Origin: Limnothrix sp. FACHB-406 | GTDB taxonomy: Bacteria; Cyanobacteriota; Cyanobacteriia; CACIAM-69d | NCBI RefSeq assembly: GCF_014698235.1 | Contig: NZ_JACJSP010000016.1 | Location: 1 to 64,000, forward strand | DNA: 64,000 nt | Direction: 5' to 3' | Program-made: the position numbers and the translations under genes | Shown: in pieces, positions 4,849 to 62,289 of the stretch | Position numbering within the stretch: the first letter of the stretch is position 1 | How the letters are laid out: the number at the start of each line of letters is the position of its first letter | Notes under the pieces: generated by a model | Database searches by the model: none | Told to the model about the DNA's origin: nothing | What the model saw: only the letters and a program-made list of their open reading frames with translations

Positions 4849-6435
4849 TCAGCGTGATCGGGCCCGTCGCCGCCCTCGGTAGCGTTTGCGCTTATGAATC
4901 ACCTTGCCCTTAATTAATTGCCAGGTATGTTCAGAAGGTGGAAAACCCGCCAAAACCGATCGCTGCAAATAGATATGAGTTGCGCGATCGGTCGGATTCA
5001 TGCTGAGGCATTCCTCAAACAAAGAAGCGGCTTCCCGATATTGCCGACGATGGAATCGCAGGACTCCTTCCTCAAATAAACTACTGGATGCACGCTTGAG
5101 GGTTTGCAATTCAATCGGATCGGCATTCAGGACTTCATAAACCGCCACAGGTTGAGTTCTGCCGCGCACATACAGCCGATCAATAAACCGAATGCTGTAC
5201 TTGGAGGGGTTATGCAGCGCTGCCAACAGACGATGGGAAACCAAAATCGAAACACTATATTGCTTCGTTAATTCCTCTAGGCGAGAAGCCAAATTCACCG
5301 CATCCCCGATCGCGGTGGTTTCCATGCGGTGAACGCCCCCGATCGTGCCCAAAATCAGCGGCCCCGTATCCAAGCCAATGCCAATGCGAATGGCCGATCG
5401 CCCTGCCTGCAAGCGCTCCTGGTTATATTCACTCAACGCCTTGAGCATCGAAATGGCCGCATCAACCGCCAGGTCAGCATCCCCTTCAAACAGGGCCATA
5501 ATGGCATCGCCAATGTACTTGTCAATGAACCCATTATGTTGGGCGATCGCTCGCTCCATTCGACCCAAATAGGCATTCAAAAAACGCAAATTTTCTTGAG
5601 GGGACATGGTTTCCGAAAGGGTCGTAAAACCCCGAATATCGGCAAACATGACCGCCATGGTTCGTTCCGTATAGTCTCCCAGGCTCACTTCCGCCAAGGT
5701 TGACCGCTGCAACAATTGCAGAAATTGGGTGGGCACAAATCGCCCATCTAAACCATCCCAATCGGCCGAATCTTCCGGAATTTCTGCCAAATCTGTAATG
5801 TCAATCTCTGCCAAATCCGTTGCTTCAGGATTGGCCTCGTCATTCATTTCCTCAACTTCTTGATCATCAGTTTCTTGATCATCAGCTTCTTGATCATTTT
5901 GATCATTCACTTGCCCATGAACAAGTTCGTTAACCGGTTCATTCAACCCTTGATGACGGTTACTGGGGCTATCTTCTCCCTGATGATCATTAACAAATGC
6001 AGAACCGTCAGCTTCAAATTCAGAACTAATCTTGAAATTGGAATGGGGATGTTGATTGATATCGAAAGAATAATGAGAATGGCGATGGGAAGAATGGCGA
6101 TCGAAACGATTGACCAAGCGCAAACGGGAATGGGAATCAGAATCCTGAGGAGAACAAGAATGGGCGATCGCCTGGGCGCAGGTTTGGCGGGCCATCCAAA
6201 ACCCAATCACACTGGCTGCTGAGGTACTCAACAAAGCCACCATTGCCACAGTGCTGACGGGGGGAACCATCTGGCTCAGCTCTGGGGCGGTCTCCGAAAA
6301 AATCAGAAGTTGCCACCGCCAGGTGATGGCTCCACTGATGAGGGCCGCCAGGGCAGGCAAGGCAATGAGTAACCATTCCCACGACCAATTGCGAAGTCGC
6401 CCACTCAGGGCTTGATAGAACTGAAGTGTTGACAT
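4849..6435 (-). CDS. Membrane-anchored class III adenylate cyclase
   Basis: This 528-residue protein has two N-terminal membrane segments (about 20-40 and 60-82), a long acidic His/Asp/Asn/Gln-rich linker (about 90-235) and a class III cyclase homology domain (about 255-440). Metal-binding aspartates lie in MFADIRGFT and KYIGDAIMAL. The adenine-selecting Lys (IDKYIGD) and Asp (TAIGDAVNLA) and the transition-state Asn/Arg (VNLASRLE) are all present, so ATP rather than GTP is the expected substrate and the enzyme looks active. The C-terminus has one or two TPR-like helices (YREAASLFEECLSMNP). No periplasmic sensor domain is evident, as the two helices are joined by only about 20 residues. Cyclic AMP controls motility and other processes in cyanobacteria. 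Confidence 0.9.
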   Translation of the reverse strand: MSTLQFYQALSGRLRNWSWEWLLIALPALAALISGAITWRWQLLIFSETAPELSQMVPPVSTVAMVALLSTSAASVIGFWMARQTCAQAIAHSCSPQDSDSHSRLRLVNRFDRHSSHRHSHYSFDINQHPHSNFKISSEFEADGSAFVNDHQGEDSPSNRHQGLNEPVNELVHGQVNDQNDQEADDQETDDQEVEEMNDEANPEATDLAEIDITDLAEIPEDSADWDGLDGRFVPTQFLQLLQRSTLAEVSLGDYTERTMAVMFADIRGFTTLSETMSPQENLRFLNAYLGRMERAIAQHNGFIDKYIGDAIMALFEGDADLAVDAAISMLKALSEYNQERLQAGRSAIRIGIGLDTGPLILGTIGGVHRMETTAIGDAVNLASRLEELTKQYSVSILVSHRLLAALHNPSKYSIRFIDRLYVRGRTQPVAVYEVLNADPIELQTLKRASSSLFEEGVLRFHRRQYREAASLFEECLSMNPTDRATHIYLQRSVLAGFPPSEHTWQLIKGKVIHKRKRYRGRRRARSR

Positions 6436-20654: not shown

Positions 20655-22688
20655 ATGGTGACGCTCTCAGTCGGTCAACTTCTCGACCGACGCTATCGGA
20701 TCGTAGAAATCCTGTCGTCCGGAGCGTTCGGGCAAACTTACCTGGCTGCGGACTTGCGCCGACCGGGCTTGCCCCACTGCATCGTGCGGCAATTCCAATT
20801 CCCCAGTAAAAATTCCAAAGCGCTGCAAGTGGTGCAGTTGCTGTTTAAGAAAAAAGCAGAAACCCTCGAAAAGCTGGGCACTCACGATCGAATCCCGCAG
20901 CTTTTGGCCTGCTTTGAGCAGGAGGGACAACTTTTTTTCATTGAGGAACTGATCCAGGGGCAAACCATCGCCGAGGAGCTGAAGGCCAATCAGCCCCAAC
21001 CGGAAGAGTATGTGGTGCGTTTCCTGCAAGATACGCTGGAAGTGCTGGATTTTGTCCACAAAAACGGGGTCATTCACCGTAATTTGCGGCCCGAAACCCT
21101 GATTCGCCGCACGATCGATGGGCGAATTGTCCCGATCGAATTTGGCTTGATTCAAGAAATTGCCAATCCCTCAGCCCGGGCTGATGCGATCACGCCGCCC
21201 CCTTCGCCGGATTCGGTGGTTTACATGTCGCCGGAACAGTTGCAGGGCAACCCGCTCTACAACAGCGATCTCTACGCGGTGGGGATGATTTGCGTCCAAG
21301 CCCTGACCGGGTTATCGCCCAATGCCCTGCCCAAACCCAAAGACAACAATGGCGATCGCCCGCCCCATTTGGATTGGCCCAACCACGGGCAAATTAACCC
21401 CGGACTGATTTCCCTAATTGAGCGGCTGATTTCTCCCTACTTCGATCGCCGCTATCAGTCAGCCGCCGATGCCCTGCGGGATTTGCAGGAACTCTATGGC
21501 CTGTCCATGGGCAGCGGGGTGAATCTCAGCGGCGCGGGCATGAGCGGCCTGCGGGCCCGGCTGGCCAGCAGCAGCCAAAACTCCCCCGCCCACAGCGAGG
21601 CCCAGGAAGCGGCCAAACGCCGTTGGCCCGATCGCCGGTTGTGGTTGGGGGTGGCGATCGCGGTGGTGGGTTTGGGGTTTGGGGCCTTGTTGTTGGCGGG
21701 GCCCCTGCGATCGCGCTATTGGGTCGATCGCGGCAGTGACCAACTGAAGGCCGAAAACTTGGAAGAGGCGATCGCCAACTACAGCCAAGCCCTCCAGGTG
21801 GATGCCAACAATGCGGAAGCGCTCTACCGACGGGGAGCCGCCTATGAGGAAATTGGGGAATATCAAAAGGCGATCGCGGATTTAGATCGGGCCATTCGCC
21901 TGCGGCCCAAACATGCCCCCAGCTATTTCCAACGGGCCAACGCCCGCTACCGTCTCAGCGATGCCCGCGCCGCGATCGAGGACTACGATCGGGCCCTGAC
22001 CTACGACCCCAACTTGGTGCAGGCTTATTTGAACCGGGGCAACGTTCGGGGCGACATTGGCGACGACAAAGGGGCGATCGAGGACTACAACCGTGTGATT
22101 GCGGCCAAGGGAGTGCCGGCCCGCCTCCTGGCCCCCGCCTATCTGAATCGGGGCCTATCGCGATCGAACCTGGATGACCAACAGGGGGCGATCGACGATG
22201 CCACCAAAGCAATTCAACTGAACCCCAGCTATGCCCTGGCCTACCAAAACCGCGGCCTAGCCCATCGGCGGGCCGGCAACCTCCAGGCCGCCCTTCAGGA
22301 CTTCAACATTGCGATCCAACTACAACCAGATGACCCAGACCCCTACTACAATCGGGGGCTAACCCGTTGGGATTTGGGCGAAGTGGAAGGCACGATCGAA
22401 GACTTCAACAAGGCGATCGAGCTGCGGCCAGAACATGCCCTGGTTTATTACGATCGGGGCGTGGCTCGGCTCAAGCAGGGCGACCAAACCGGCGCACTCA
22501 CCGACTTCCAACAATCGGCCAAGCTGTGCATCGACGAAGGCCGTTTGGGTTGTTACCGTGATGCCCAGTACCAAATCCAACAGATCCAAGCGGGCAAACT
22601 GCCCACCGATCTCAAATTGTCCGATGAGGAAGAACCCGAAGCCCCACCACCCGAACCCAGCCCCGCCGCCAGCCCGCCGCCCCCCTAG
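20655..22688 (+). CDS. Membrane pseudokinase with C-terminal TPR repeats
   Basis: This 677-residue protein has a Ser/Thr protein kinase fold (about 12-280), one membrane helix (about 329-350) and seven or eight TPR units (355-655) ending in a Pro/Glu tail. Every catalytic motif is eroded. The glycine loop starts ILSSGAFG, the VAIK-type lysine is Arg45 (HCIVRQF), and the helix-C glutamate region reads KKKAETL. HRDxKxxN has become HRNLRPET (141-148), and DFG has become EFG (162-164). Structural residues such as APE-like SPEQ and the DLYAVG motif remain, so the fold should be intact. Pseudokinases act as scaffolds or allosteric activators. The next gene is an intact paralogue with the same architecture, 295 bp downstream, and is its most likely partner. 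Topology predicts an internal kinase fold and external TPR. Confidence 0.9.
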   Translation: MVTLSVGQLLDRRYRIVEILSSGAFGQTYLAADLRRPGLPHCIVRQFQFPSKNSKALQVVQLLFKKKAETLEKLGTHDRIPQLLACFEQEGQLFFIEELIQGQTIAEELKANQPQPEEYVVRFLQDTLEVLDFVHKNGVIHRNLRPETLIRRTIDGRIVPIEFGLIQEIANPSARADAITPPPSPDSVVYMSPEQLQGNPLYNSDLYAVGMICVQALTGLSPNALPKPKDNNGDRPPHLDWPNHGQINPGLISLIERLISPYFDRRYQSAADALRDLQELYGLSMGSGVNLSGAGMSGLRARLASSSQNSPAHSEAQEAAKRRWPDRRLWLGVAIAVVGLGFGALLLAGPLRSRYWVDRGSDQLKAENLEEAIANYSQALQVDANNAEALYRRGAAYEEIGEYQKAIADLDRAIRLRPKHAPSYFQRANARYRLSDARAAIEDYDRALTYDPNLVQAYLNRGNVRGDIGDDKGAIEDYNRVIAAKGVPARLLAPAYLNRGLSRSNLDDQQGAIDDATKAIQLNPSYALAYQNRGLAHRRAGNLQAALQDFNIAIQLQPDDPDPYYNRGLTRWDLGEVEGTIEDFNKAIELRPEHALVYYDRGVARLKQGDQTGALTDFQQSAKLCIDEGRLGCYRDAQYQIQQIQAGKLPTDLKLSDEEEPEAPPPEPSPAASPPPP

Positions 22689-22982: not shown

Positions 22983-25019
22983 TTGGCCCCCAACACCCCA
23001 CCTTCTCCTCCACCTCCGGGCGATCGACCTCCCAAATCATCCTTAGGCAAGGATCCTATTACCATCGGCCAACTGCTGGATAAGCGCTATCGCATCTTGC
23101 AAGTACTTGGTTCCGGAGCCTTTGGCAAAACCTACCTGGCTGCGGATCTTCGCCGGCCGGGCTATCCCCAATGTGTGGTGAAGCAACTGCGCCTGTTGCG
23201 TCCCAACCCCACCGCCGCCAAAAACGCCCACCGTCTCTTTCAGCGGGAGGCGGAAATGTTGCAACGGTTAGGAACCCATCCCCAAATTCCCCGCCTGTTG
23301 GCTTTTTTTGAAGAAAACGAGCAATTTTATCTCGTCAAGGAATTTGCACCGGGCCACCCCCTCTCGCGGGAATTGGTGGTGGGGGAACCGCTCCCGGAGC
23401 AACGGGTGATTTCCATGGTGGCGGAAATTCTGGAAATTTTGTCCTTTGTCCATGGCAACCGGGTGATTCACCGGGATATCAAACCCGCCAACTTAATCCG
23501 CCGCAGCGCTGACGGCCGGTTGGTGTTGATTGACTTTGGTTCCGTGAAGGAAATTTTGCAAACCGATGGGGAATCGGCCGCCGCCCGCACGATCGCGGCG
23601 GGTACTCCGGCCTACATGCCGATCGAGCAGTTTTATGGCAATCCCCAATTCAACAGCGATATCTATGCCGTCGGGGCGATCGCAATTCAGGCCTTAGGGG
23701 GCTTTTCTTCGGAGGAATTGCAGGCCCTGCGCGGATCCCAGGAGCCGGTGAGCGGCCGTTTGAATTGGCGGGCCAGCATTTCCGTCAGCACGGCGTTTGG
23801 AACCGTCCTCGATAAGATGGTGCATCCTTCCTATCAACAGCGCTACGCCAGCGCCGAGGAAGTGTTGATGGATCTGCTGCCGTTGATGGGCGGGAATGTT
23901 GGCGAGTCCATCACCACCGCCGCCGAGGAAGAACTAGGCAACTCCATTCCTTGGGCTGAATGGTGGCGACGTTGGTGGCCTTGGGGGTTGGGGTTGTTGG
24001 GCACGGTGGTGGGGCTGGCAACCCTGTGGCAGTCGGGGTTGCCCCAGTTGGCCATTGCCCAGATGATTTTGTCGCGCTGGTCTCAAGTGCCCACGGGATT
24101 GGTGATGAACCAAAATGCGTCCCCCTCGGATTTGGTGGGGATTGCGCGGGTGTTGGAGGGAAAAACCCCAGCTCCCGATCGCACCTGGGACTACAGCAAG
24201 GCCATCCACGACGCAACCCAAGCGCTGGTTTGGTCCGCCAGCAGTTCCGCCTATTTTTTGCGCGGCGTGGCCTACTACAACAGCGGCAACTGGAATGCGG
24301 CGTTGGCCGACTTAAACCAAGCCTTGCAGCTCGAAGCCAGTGACGCGATCGCCCGTACCTATCTGGCGGCCACGCAAGATCGCCTGGGCGATTTGCAAAG
24401 TGCTCTGGCCAGCTACGATCGAGCCATTCAAGACAATGGCAAGTTGAGTGCGGCCCACTTGGGTCGGGGGTTTGTGCGGTTGCAACTGAGCGATGCGAAA
24501 GGGGCGATCGCGGACTTTGACAAAGTGCTGTCTCAGCAGTCCAGTTGGTCGGCGGCTTATCGTGGTCGGGCCTTGGCCAAAATGCTGGCGGGCGACTCCG
24601 AAGGGGCGATCACCGACAGTTCCCAAGCCATCCGGCTCGATCCCAACAACGCCAGGGCCTATCAGGTGCGGGGACGTACTCACTTTGCCAGCGGCAATCT
24701 GCCCTCAGCCCTGGCCGATTTGACGGTGGCCATTCGTTTAGACAGCAAAGATCCGGAAAGCTACTACTACCGCGCCCTCACTCGCCAGGCCCTGGGGGAA
24801 CCCCAAGGCACACTCAGCGATCTGAACCAGGCAATCGCCCTGGACGATCGCTATGCCATGGCCTATCAACAGCGGGGATTGGTGCAGGTGGGCTTGGGGA
24901 ACCGGGCCCCGGCGGCGGCGGATTTTCGGCAGGCGGCCAAGCTCTGTCTCGATCGGGGGCAACTGGATTGTTATGACGCAGCCCGCCGTGAGCTAGAGAA
25001 ATTGCAGGCCATGCCTTAA
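22983..25019 (+). CDS. Membrane Ser/Thr protein kinase with C-terminal TPR repeats
   Basis: This 678-residue paralogue of the preceding pseudokinase has all kinase motifs. They are glycine loop VLGSGAFGKTYLAADL, Lys67 (QCVVKQL), helix-C Glu (FQREAEML), HRDIKPAN (163-170), DFG (184-186), and activation-segment TPAYMPIEQF. A membrane helix lies near 330-350 and about seven TPR units follow to the C-terminus. Upstream of the kinase domain is a short Pro-rich leader. The only usable starts there are non-ATG, and TTG at 22983 is the best, so the N-terminus is uncertain. A DUF3124 lipoprotein gene starts 40 bp downstream and is probably co-transcribed. Substrates cannot be inferred. Confidence 0.9.
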   Translation: MAPNTPPSPPPPGDRPPKSSLGKDPITIGQLLDKRYRILQVLGSGAFGKTYLAADLRRPGYPQCVVKQLRLLRPNPTAAKNAHRLFQREAEMLQRLGTHPQIPRLLAFFEENEQFYLVKEFAPGHPLSRELVVGEPLPEQRVISMVAEILEILSFVHGNRVIHRDIKPANLIRRSADGRLVLIDFGSVKEILQTDGESAAARTIAAGTPAYMPIEQFYGNPQFNSDIYAVGAIAIQALGGFSSEELQALRGSQEPVSGRLNWRASISVSTAFGTVLDKMVHPSYQQRYASAEEVLMDLLPLMGGNVGESITTAAEEELGNSIPWAEWWRRWWPWGLGLLGTVVGLATLWQSGLPQLAIAQMILSRWSQVPTGLVMNQNASPSDLVGIARVLEGKTPAPDRTWDYSKAIHDATQALVWSASSSAYFLRGVAYYNSGNWNAALADLNQALQLEASDAIARTYLAATQDRLGDLQSALASYDRAIQDNGKLSAAHLGRGFVRLQLSDAKGAIADFDKVLSQQSSWSAAYRGRALAKMLAGDSEGAITDSSQAIRLDPNNARAYQVRGRTHFASGNLPSALADLTVAIRLDSKDPESYYYRALTRQALGEPQGTLSDLNQAIALDDRYAMAYQQRGLVQVGLGNRAPAAADFRQAAKLCLDRGQLDCYDAARRELEKLQAMP

Positions 25020-58410: not shown

Positions 58411-58878
58411 ATGGTTATGAAACGGACTGTTGTAGCGTTGGTTTTGGCTATGAGCGCGATCGCCCCGGTTGCTGCCATGGCCGTTGCACAAACCCCCTCT
58501 GCCACCCTAGCCCAGCAAAGCCGCGTCACCCTGCCCAAACAGTCAACCAGGGTGCTCAAGTCCGGAAACTTCATGGCCCTGGAGCATCCCACCCAAGGCA
58601 CAGCCCGAATCGTGATGGAAGGCTCTCAGAAAATTCTGGAATTTGGCAATAACTTCCGCAGTGACAGCGGCCCAGCTCTGAGGGTGGTGTTGCATCGATC
58701 TGCCCGACCGGGAATGCAACTAACGGAAGGCCAATACGTGGTGTTGAGTGCGTTGCAAAAAACCTCCGGTTCCCAACGTTACGTGATCCCCAACAATCTC
58801 AATTTGGCGCAATACCAATCCGTGGCCATTTGGTGCCAACAGTTCAATGCCACCTTTGGGGCCGCAACGCTGAACTAG
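58411..58878 (+). CDS. DM13 domain protein, secreted
   Basis: The 155-residue precursor has a signal peptide (TVVALVLAMSAIAPVAAMAV) and a DM13 domain (about 45-150). The domain shows SGNFMALEHPTQGTARIV, ILEFGNNFRSDSGPALRVVL and VAIWCQQFNATFGAA, including its conserved CxxFxxxFG form. DM13 domains have been proposed to take part in redox reactions through that cysteine. It is periplasmic by prediction and monocistronic. Confidence 0.85.
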   Translation: MVMKRTVVALVLAMSAIAPVAAMAVAQTPSATLAQQSRVTLPKQSTRVLKSGNFMALEHPTQGTARIVMEGSQKILEFGNNFRSDSGPALRVVLHRSARPGMQLTEGQYVVLSALQKTSGSQRYVIPNNLNLAQYQSVAIWCQQFNATFGAATLN

Positions 58879-59023: not shown

Positions 59024-60577
59024 TCAACGGATTAAGTAATCGGCCAGGGTTTGGGCATGGTTCCACCATCGGGGGCCGCCCACCCAGTTGCGGGAAGGCA
59101 AATGCCCGATCGGGGCATCGGCTCGAAACTGAAAGGTCTCGTCTCGGGTGTCGGAGCGGCTGCCGGGCCAACCCACTGTCTGGCAAAACTGGTTATAGTC
59201 CCGGCTTTGAAGGATCAGGCGGCTTTGGATCATCAGCCCAAAGCGGCCGTGGCTGTAGTGCATCCACAGCAGGTCGATCGCCAGCAAATCGGGCCGGCTG
59301 AGGCGGGGAATGTCGCCCACTTGCACAAAACGCCGTCGCCCGTCCAGTTGCTGACAGAGCAGTTGGCGGGTTAGTTCGTCGGCCTGTTGCCATTCCCCGG
59401 TGGCTAAGAGCCGCTCTAGGGGGTGGTAATCGAGGCCCACCACGGACACCACCACGCCCCGATCGCACAGGGGAGTTTTGACCAGTCGGGATGGCAACAA
59501 CCGATTTAGCCAAGGGGGTTGGGGCGCGGACAGGCTGGGCAAGGGGCGAAAGGGCGGCTGGTTGCTGCTGCCCAAGCCGGTTTGGGTGGGCACTTCGTGG
59601 CTGGGCAGTCGTAGGGGAAAGGTGGTGATGGTGGGTTGGTCGTTGGGGGATGCGGCGGGCCGATCGACTCGTGCTCGTTGCTTTTCGGGGGTTGGCGCTG
59701 GCTGGGGCGATCGATCCAAAGCGGCCAACATGTCGGCGGCGGTGGCGTAGCGCTGACCGGTGGCTCGGGTAACGGCGCGATCGAGCACCGTCCCCAATCG
59801 GGGCGGGATCGTGACCCTTGGGGGCAAAAAATCTCGCCAAACCCAAGCATCGCTGGTGCTGTCGCGCAGCATGAAGGGCGACACCCCCGTTAGCAACCGC
59901 AAGCAGGTAACACCCAAGCTATAGAGATCGCTGGCGGGCAGAGCTTTGCCGGCCAGTTGCTCCGGGGCGATATATTCCGGGGAGCCAATCACCGTGCCGG
60001 TTTTGTCCCACCAATAGGGATCAATCACCTTGGCGATGCCGAAGTCGATCAGCACCATTCGCCGATCGCTCAGGCGGCGAATGAAGTTGCTGGGCTTGAT
60101 GTCCCGATGCACCACGCCGCGATCGTGCACGAATTGCAAAATTGGCAACACATCCCGCAGCAAGGCTTCGACTTTGCGAGCAGACCAAGGGCCGCCCAGG
60201 GCTTCGCGATTCAGGGTGGGCCCTTCGATCCATTCCTGCATTAAATAAATGGTTTGGTCAGCTTCCACAAAGTCCAAAAACTGAGGAATTTGGGGATGGG
60301 ATCCGAGATCGGCCAACAGGCGAGCTTCGCTGGTGAACAGGCGACGGGCTTTGGGATCTTCCGCAAAGGAACCCACCAACTGTTTGATCACGCAGGGGGG
60401 GCGATCGGGCTGGGTTAGGTCTTTGGCCAAAAAAGTGTAGCCAAATCCACCGCGTCCGATCGGGGATTGGGGCAAGTAGCGATCGCCCAGCCGCAGCGGT
60501 CGGCCACAGGCAGCACAGTTCGCTGCATGATCGTCATTTTCGGGGGCCGTGCAACGGGAGTTTAAGCAGTAGCTCAT
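59024..60577 (-). CDS. Ser/Thr protein kinase with zinc-ribbon start and C-terminal GUN4 domain
   Basis: This 517-residue protein starts with a zinc-ribbon-like motif (Cys 4, 9, 21, 24: YCLNSRC and NCAACGR). A complete Ser/Thr kinase follows (about 32-295): glycine loop IGRGGFGYTFLAKDL, Lys65 (PCVIKQL), HRDIKPSNF (157-165) and DFG (178-180). A Pro-rich linker leads to a GUN4 domain (about 380-515) with YHPLERLLATGEWQQADELT and then DLLWMHYSHGRFGLMIQSRL. GUN4 binds Mg-protoporphyrin and activates magnesium chelatase; here it could sense a tetrapyrrole for the kinase. ATGA at 60574-60577 couples its start to the stop of the cyclase gene upstream. Confidence 0.9.
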   Translation of the reverse strand: MSYCLNSRCTAPENDDHAANCAACGRPLRLGDRYLPQSPIGRGGFGYTFLAKDLTQPDRPPCVIKQLVGSFAEDPKARRLFTSEARLLADLGSHPQIPQFLDFVEADQTIYLMQEWIEGPTLNREALGGPWSARKVEALLRDVLPILQFVHDRGVVHRDIKPSNFIRRLSDRRMVLIDFGIAKVIDPYWWDKTGTVIGSPEYIAPEQLAGKALPASDLYSLGVTCLRLLTGVSPFMLRDSTSDAWVWRDFLPPRVTIPPRLGTVLDRAVTRATGQRYATAADMLAALDRSPQPAPTPEKQRARVDRPAASPNDQPTITTFPLRLPSHEVPTQTGLGSSNQPPFRPLPSLSAPQPPWLNRLLPSRLVKTPLCDRGVVVSVVGLDYHPLERLLATGEWQQADELTRQLLCQQLDGRRRFVQVGDIPRLSRPDLLAIDLLWMHYSHGRFGLMIQSRLILQSRDYNQFCQTVGWPGSRSDTRDETFQFRADAPIGHLPSRNWVGGPRWWNHAQTLADYLIR

Positions 60578-62289
60578 GACGGGGGATGTGGATGCAAACC
60601 AGGATCTGAATCTTGGTGGCTGCTGAGTTCACCGATTAACCAATAGGTGATCATTTCGCCTTTGCCCTTCACAGCAATTGTGCCCCGTTGCTCCAAGTGG
60701 AAATAGCTGTGCAGGCGATCGAAGGCCGCTTGGCTGACTTGAATTCGCCCCGGCTGCCCCAGGGTTTCCATCCGGCTGGCCACATTCACCGTGTCGCCCC
60801 AGAGGTCATAGACCAGCTTTTTCATCCCAATCACCCCGGCTACGGCGCTGCCGCTGTGGATGCCAATTCGCAACCGAAAAGGGCTGCCATCGGGCTTGCG
60901 ATATTGCCCGATCGCCTGTTGCATGGCCAGGGCTAAATGGGCGATCGCAAAGGCGCTGTTCGATCGGGGCTTGGGCACACCGCCCACCACCATGTAGGCA
61001 TCCCCGATCGTCTTGATTTTTTCCAGGCCGTATTGCTCCACCAGATCATCAAAGGTGCAAAACACATCATTCAGGAATTGCACCACCACCGTTGGCGGGT
61101 GCTGGGCGGCAAAGCTGGTGAAATCCACGAGATCCGCAAACAAAACGGTCACATCGTTGAAGGTTTCCGCCACGGTTTGGGAGCCGCTGGCCAGTTGTTC
61201 CGCCACGCCAGCGGGCAAGATGTTGTGCAACAGGTCGTTGATGCGATCGGTCTGGGCCGCCAGTTCAGCCGTGCGGCGGGCCACGCGCTGCTCTAGTTCA
61301 CGGTTGAGGGCCGCGAGCGATCGCGCCGATCGGGAGCGCTCGGATTCCGCCGCCGACAGCACCATCGAAGTAATCGTGATTACGCCCAAAAAGGCCTGCA
61401 AAAACAGCACCGCCTGTTGGGTGCTGCTGGCTTTGGCCACAAAGGGGCCCATCCCAAAGGCCGTGCCCCCGATCGCGATCGCTGAAATCAGAAATGACCC
61501 CACCGCTGCGGCCCTTGGCCCAAACTGCATCCCCGCCCACACCACCAGGGGAAAGGGCAAATATTCCAAAGGATAGCGAGCAATATCCGCCTCCGTTTGG
61601 GCCCAAAAGACAATGCCGCTACTGCCGAGTAATAGCCCGAGCCAAAGGGTGCGCAGGAGCGATCGGCGCGTGCTTTTGTGTCGGCGCAGGCGGGTGATTC
61701 GTTGCCAATCTTGTTGCTGGAGTTGGGCCACCATCAAAATCAGCGGCACAAAGACCAATATCCCCATGGCATCGCCCAAAAACCAGCCCCAACGCACCGT
61801 CGCAAACTCCGACCAAGGCAAGTTGCCGGTTAAGCACAGGGCCAACACACCGCAGGTGCAATTAATTTGGGGGGCAATTAGCACACCGCTGACCAAAAAC
61901 TTCAGCACATTCGACACGCGATCGAACACATTGCTGCCCCCCAGCCGCCGAAACAGCCACACCCCAAGAACAGCCTGAACCGTTGCGCCCGTGCAGCCAA
62001 ACAGTCCCAACAGGGGAATGGTGATCCCTGAGTGGATCAGGTCATAGAAATTGATGCCGATGGCGATCGCCGGCCACAGCCGAAAACCACCCAACATCAG
62101 GGCCGCTTGGGCAATGCCGGCCGAGGGCCAAACCGCCGTGCCAATTTGGTGCAACCCCGGCAGGGACACGGCCACATAGGCCGCGAGTCCGTAGGCGATC
62201 GCCACCACAATAATAATTGACCCGACCAGTTCTCCTCGGGAGCCGGGTTGCGCAAGTTTCCCAAATTTAACCAGCCAGCGATGATTCAA
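60574..62289 (-). CDS. MASE1-type membrane adenylate cyclase
   Basis: The 571-residue protein has a MASE1 sensor of about eight membrane helices (to residue 310; VWPSAGIAQAALMLGG is characteristic). A short coiled coil (ESERSRSARSLAALNRELEQ) leads to a class III cyclase domain (about 360-560). Metal Asp residues lie in LFADLVDFTS and KTIGDAYMVVGG. The adenine-selecting Lys (EKIKTIGD) and Asp (YDLWGDTVN) and the Asn/Arg of VNVASRMET point to an active adenylate cyclase. MASE1 is an integral membrane sensory domain of unknown ligand. The stop overlaps the ATG of the kinase-GUN4 gene, making a two-gene operon. Confidence 0.92.
   Translation of the reverse strand: MNHRWLVKFGKLAQPGSRGELVGSIIIVVAIAYGLAAYVAVSLPGLHQIGTAVWPSAGIAQAALMLGGFRLWPAIAIGINFYDLIHSGITIPLLGLFGCTGATVQAVLGVWLFRRLGGSNVFDRVSNVLKFLVSGVLIAPQINCTCGVLALCLTGNLPWSEFATVRWGWFLGDAMGILVFVPLILMVAQLQQQDWQRITRLRRHKSTRRSLLRTLWLGLLLGSSGIVFWAQTEADIARYPLEYLPFPLVVWAGMQFGPRAAAVGSFLISAIAIGGTAFGMGPFVAKASSTQQAVLFLQAFLGVITITSMVLSAAESERSRSARSLAALNRELEQRVARRTAELAAQTDRINDLLHNILPAGVAEQLASGSQTVAETFNDVTVLFADLVDFTSFAAQHPPTVVVQFLNDVFCTFDDLVEQYGLEKIKTIGDAYMVVGGVPKPRSNSAFAIAHLALAMQQAIGQYRKPDGSPFRLRIGIHSGSAVAGVIGMKKLVYDLWGDTVNVASRMETLGQPGRIQVSQAAFDRLHSYFHLEQRGTIAVKGKGEMITYWLIGELSSHQDSDPGLHPHPPS

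Follow-up and report, generated by a model that had tools for sequence, protein, structure and literature searches.

Overlapping genes for a MASE1 adenylate cyclase and a kinase-GUN4 protein in Limnothrix sp. FACHB-406: a probably recent, genus-restricted pairing of two common signalling modules

Here, we describe two overlapping minus-strand genes of the cyanobacterium Limnothrix sp. FACHB-406, found in a 64,000-nt stretch of DNA (contig NZ_JACJSP010000016.1, positions 1 to 64,000), referred to below as the window. A MASE1 class III adenylate cyclase gene (60574..62289, TTG start, 571 aa) is followed by a gene for a Ser/Thr kinase with a C-terminal GUN4-like domain (59024..60577, ATG start, 517 aa), and open reading frames and Pfam matches agree with the initial annotation on the genes, their domains and their coordinates. 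The reported overlap was likewise confirmed in the sequence, with the four bases ATGA at 60574..60577 (minus strand) holding both the cyclase stop codon TGA (60576-60574) and the kinase start codon ATG (60577-60575). All four Pfam domains of the two proteins score far above cut-off and far beyond chance. Upstream of the cyclase lies a divergent neighbour that, from its sequence, we take to be the ribosomal protein L21 gene, and a DM13-domain protein gene (58411-58878, plus strand; Pfam) converges on the kinase gene from the downstream side. A consensus scan for promoters and terminators, at chance level overall (1 promoter-like site against 1.5 expected by chance), revealed no promoter-like sites on the minus strand between or near the two genes. 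The shared strand and the ATGA overlap suggest co-expression, and possibly a shared function, in this species, in which co-translation of the two genes is plausible.

In the cyclase, the polytopic MASE1 membrane sensory domain occupies residues 26-318 (61336..62214, minus strand; Pfam E 3.4e-39) and the Guanylate_cyc catalytic domain residues 374-552 (60634..61170, minus strand; E 3.7e-63). Translation from the TTG start gives MNHRW, and the longest ORF of both genus relatives compared (G001 and G002) begins at the same start. Class III cyclases use a pair of Asp residues to hold metal, a Lys/Asp pair for adenine and an Asn/Arg pair for the transition state. When aligned with solved adenylate cyclase C1/C2 domains, the window protein places its metal Asp pair in FADLVDF and TIGDAYM, its adenine pair at the Lys of EKIKT and the Asp of YDLWG, and its Asn/Arg pair in NVASR. 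Since both metal Asp and the Lys/Asp and Asn/Arg pairs occur in one chain, a homodimeric adenylate cyclase is expected. At least eight further cyanobacterial genomes (G003, G004, G007, G011, G014, G020, G031 and G058) have MASE1 and cyclase matches within a single ORF, as judged by matching domain coordinates, whereas a full-length match to the window cyclase was found only inside the genus. The window also holds a second class III cyclase gene (4849-6435, minus strand) of a more divergent kind, with its domain at 5152-5661 and a long acidic low-complexity linker.

The kinase domain (residues 38-243; 59849..60466, minus strand; Pfam Pkinase E 2.6e-33) carries the catalytic Lys in VIK, the HRD in HRDIKPSN and the DFG. 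An N-terminal four-Cys prefix profile (NF045510) scores 23.7 bits, just under its cut-off of 24 bits, with the four Cys present. At the C-terminus, Pfam places a GUN4 domain at residues 380-506 (59060..59440, minus strand; E 6.8e-28), in which the loop reads GHLPSRNWVGG, against the canonical GHLPLLNQLRG. An AlphaFold model gives a confident GUN4 fold (pLDDT 84.5, falling to 61-68 for the groove-shaping loop), and Foldseek returned 14 significant matches, every one a GUN4 structure and including the ligand-bound 4XKB, 4XKC and 7E2T (probability 1.00 and TM by query 0.71-0.79 against stand-alone GUN4 structures). Elsewhere in the window, a tandem pair of similarly sized Ser/Thr kinase-TPR genes (20655-22688 and 22983-25019, both plus strand) is separated by 294 nt.

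The initial annotation proposed that this domain senses porphyrins and that its groove be checked by modelling; the fold is indeed that of GUN4, but most of the residues known to bind porphyrin are gone. In stand-alone GUN4, F196 and R214 are named for porphyrin binding and W192 affects binding in vivo (PMC8967248), while LxNxLR with N211 is named for bilin binding, and the N219G change in Chlamydomonas GUN4 abolishes bilin binding and keeps porphyrin binding (PMC10156173). Aligned on Synechocystis GUN4 (structures 1Y6I, 4XKB/4XKC and 7E2S-U), from which it also differs in being fused to a kinase, the window domain retains F196 and N211, falls in an alignment gap at W192, and carries Gly for R214, Ser for L209 and Val for L213. 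The LxNxLR position thus reads SRNWVG with N alone kept. Of four groove features named in the literature and compared here, the domain lacks three (W192, R214 and LxNxLR), and on this alignment a canonical porphyrin groove is rejected. The stand-alone GUN4 of FACHB-406 (L001, on contig C17) retains W192, F196, N211, L213 and R214. This 4.5-Mb genome has nine GUN4 matches (contigs C17, C29, C4, C10, C11, C1, C6, C9 and C16), and among the eight that were aligned (L001-L008) L001 is the only one to keep the canonical ligand residues.

These replacements extend well beyond the window protein. LxNxLR is kept in 0 of 23 kinase-GUN4 proteins obtained by a kinase-driven search, and GHLPSRxWVG or a close variant is found in nearly all kinase-GUN4 proteins examined, that set included. 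The loop is common to the window protein and 30 relatives, with GHLPS, W131 and G134 invariant among the 31 aligned sequences. The named kinase-GUN4 set was retrieved with the GHLPS pattern, so that its loop conservation is partly selected; the bias-free sets are a Synechocystis-based homologue alignment and the kinase-driven search, and the latter agrees. Loss of the groove residues is, by these alignments, a property of the whole kinase-GUN4 subfamily. At position 211 the named homologues carry S (22), R (17), I (16), V (5), N (4) or other residues (6, including T, L and Q), and with so many residues tolerated the N211 of the window protein looks incidental. A conserved fold from which most of the published binding residues have gone makes tetrapyrrole binding less likely, if still possible in view of the kept F196 and N211 and of the Chlamydomonas N219G result, and the ligand of the domain is probably not a canonically bound Mg-porphyrin. 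One reading of the conserved loop is that GHLPSRxWVG builds a remodelled groove for a tetrapyrrole or another planar ligand, which would make the kinase a metabolite sensor unconnected to the cyclase. Strong conservation of the loop in the 31 sequences, a dN/dS of 0.061 for the domain and the tunable ligand choice seen in the bilin-binding literature (PMC10156173) are in keeping with this, but conservation would fit a protein interface equally well, no kinase-GUN4 protein has a known ligand, the named set was motif-retrieved (the agreement of the kinase-driven search notwithstanding), and the loop is modelled at low confidence. We hold this reading to be possible, though somewhat doubtful.

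How much the adjacency of the two genes can say was estimated from their abundance. The FACHB-406 genome contains 20 class III cyclase domains and nine GUN4 matches (eight above cut-off), and the kinase protein query gives at least 26 matches; with about 4,100 genes, a number assumed from the genome size, random gene order would yield about 0.05-0.09 adjacent GUN4-cyclase pairs. Adjacency by chance is thus only mildly unlikely, and a lone neighbouring pair is weak evidence, so that conservation is the real test.

Within the genus, three genomes were compared (the window genome, G001 and G002), and the gene pair is intact in one of them. In G001 the cyclase is 98% identical to that of the window and under strong purifying selection (dN/dS 0.078), and the body of the kinase gene is deleted: the same ATGA is followed by about 16 kinase codons (MSYCLNPRCTAPENND) and then by the end of the DM13 gene, which the deletion sets beside the cyclase. 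A DNA search of the G001 genome found no second copy of the kinase gene body. An assembly gap is an unlikely cause of this absence, as the join lies inside a 205-kb contig and leaves a clean scar, with no other copy. Both genes are present in G002, a metagenome-assembled genome (RDXB01000102.1, Oscillatoriales cyanobacterium PH2015_14S_56_116), where they do not overlap: the cyclase stops at a TAA some 50 nt ahead of the kinase ATG. In the linker of the kinase gene 8 nt are deleted, which shifts the frame and leaves kinase and GUN4 in separate ORFs. Relative to the window copy, dN/dS is 0.076 for the kinase and 0.061 for the GUN4 domain. Both halves being under purifying selection, the break is either recent or an assembly error, and the latter could be the case for a locus from such a genome.

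The deletion in one relative and the frameshift in the other could also mean that the kinase-GUN4 gene is decaying in the genus and that the overlap has no functional meaning. We consider this unlikely, as the window gene has an unbroken frame and dN/dS against G002 stays below 0.08 in both of its domains; the intact frame and low dN/dS rule out a pseudogene in the window. With dN/dS of 0.06-0.13 overall for the two genes and catalytic residues intact, the window cyclase and kinase-GUN4 protein both look functional.

Outside the genus, the kinase-GUN4 protein was queried against 390 genomes, and the best 20 homologues were taken with flanks of 7-15 kb. Kinase-GUN4 fusions make up 18 of these 20, and the 7-15 kb around those outside the genus contain no class III cyclase. 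A scan of named genomes added 70 loci from Nostoc, Microcoleus, Okeania, Trichodesmium, Oscillatoria, Spirulina and others, with an intact fused ORF in 56, of which 41 are flanked by at least 2.5 kb on each side. Across the 85 loci with matches (the 20 whole-genome loci and the named loci, two sets that overlap, with many loci on short contigs), a class III cyclase in flanks of up to 10 kb was found at L112 only, which is the genus-mate G002. As far as match coordinates tell, the MASE1-cyclases of other genomes have no kinase-GUN4 neighbour. The search for the pair in other cyanobacteria called for by the initial annotation thus found none outside the genus among the loci examined, and the two neighbourhood scans (20 whole-genome and 70 named loci) rule out a conserved cyclase/kinase-GUN4 operon. 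At three Oscillatoria/Microcoleus-type loci (L140, L155 and L156), kinase and GUN4 are separate adjacent ORFs, like the G002 split.

The initial annotation also knew of no described pathway with this combination. Kinase-GUN4 fusions were, however, described in 2005, when a prokaryotic kinase survey reported one from Nostoc, with GUN4 at its C-terminus, and suggested that it acts in chlorophyll regulation (PMC1262709), and in 2007, with GUN4 kinases from Synechococcus, Crocosphaera, Trichodesmium and Anabaena (PMC2176072). On this record and our searches, such fusions are already known and common in cyanobacteria, and the fusion is not new. A non-exhaustive literature search found no published cyclase/kinase-GUN4 pair. 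Like the published cbSTKII-GUN4 proteins (Nostoc alr4949 and Trichodesmium Tery_1722/1723; PMC1262709, PMC2176072), the window protein has an N-terminal Hanks kinase and a C-terminal GUN4, with the GHLPSRxWVG loop it shares with its 30 aligned relatives; it differs in that its gene follows an overlapping cyclase, as at no other checked locus outside the genus. With the caspase, trypsin and TIR fusions of GUN4 (PMC7159879, PMC2853523) it has in common a GUN4-like accessory module on a signalling protein, and the catalytic partner is different.

GUN4 fusions with kinases, caspases, trypsin and TIR as partners were put forward as putative tetrapyrrole sensors in a 2020 eLife paper (PMC7159879), and a functional operon could be imagined here in which tetrapyrrole-bound GUN4 controls the kinase, so that kinase and co-translated cyclase jointly connect the state of the pigments with cAMP. 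The overlap, the GUN4 fold and the kept F196 and N211 positions fit this picture. Against it, the domain lacks W192 and R214, the subfamily has lost LxNxLR, N is just one of many residues tolerated at 211, and the pair is confined to the genus and lost in one relative. Such an operon is, in our judgement, very unlikely. We regard as similarly unlikely a variant for the window species, in which a remodelled GUN4 with a non-canonical ligand would tune the co-translated kinase and the kinase would in turn regulate the MASE1 cyclase, tying a metabolite signal to cAMP. The two findings that the initial annotation had itself named as telling against its proposal, missing groove residues and a confined gene pair, are thus largely in place. 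Of the translational coupling it described, the overlap is real and co-translation plausible, but the arrangement is limited to the genus and not conserved. A conserved functional unit is not supported, with the kinase deleted in G001, the overlap missing and the frame shifted in G002, and the pair absent at the other loci examined.

We consider it highly probable that the locus represents two common, separately evolving signalling modules, recently and loosely joined, with a divergent GUN4 branch and no conserved pathway. The cyclase and kinase genes stand head-to-tail in the genus and overlap in the window species, where they may be co-transcribed and the overlap probably gives co-expression, in an association that appears recent and dispensable. 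The MASE1-linked polytopic cyclase probably makes cAMP as a homodimer upon some membrane signal, and the cytoplasmic Hanks-type kinase carries a GUN4-fold domain of a divergent, kinase-specific branch. This domain, we infer, modulates or directs the kinase, either by touching a protein or through a ligand that is not a Mg-porphyrin or bilin bound in the canonical manner.

Two widespread modules have come together recently and, among the loci examined, in this genus only, and their arrangement is already eroding. Function should not be read from one overlap, since a coupling of four bases can be confined to one lineage and last only a short time. Across many cyanobacterial families, the kinase-GUN4 subfamily keeps the fold and has its published porphyrin and bilin residues replaced by a conserved GHLPSRxWVGG loop. 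Tetrapyrrole sensing by kinase-GUN4 proteins, a view repeated since 2005, should accordingly be treated as an assumption.
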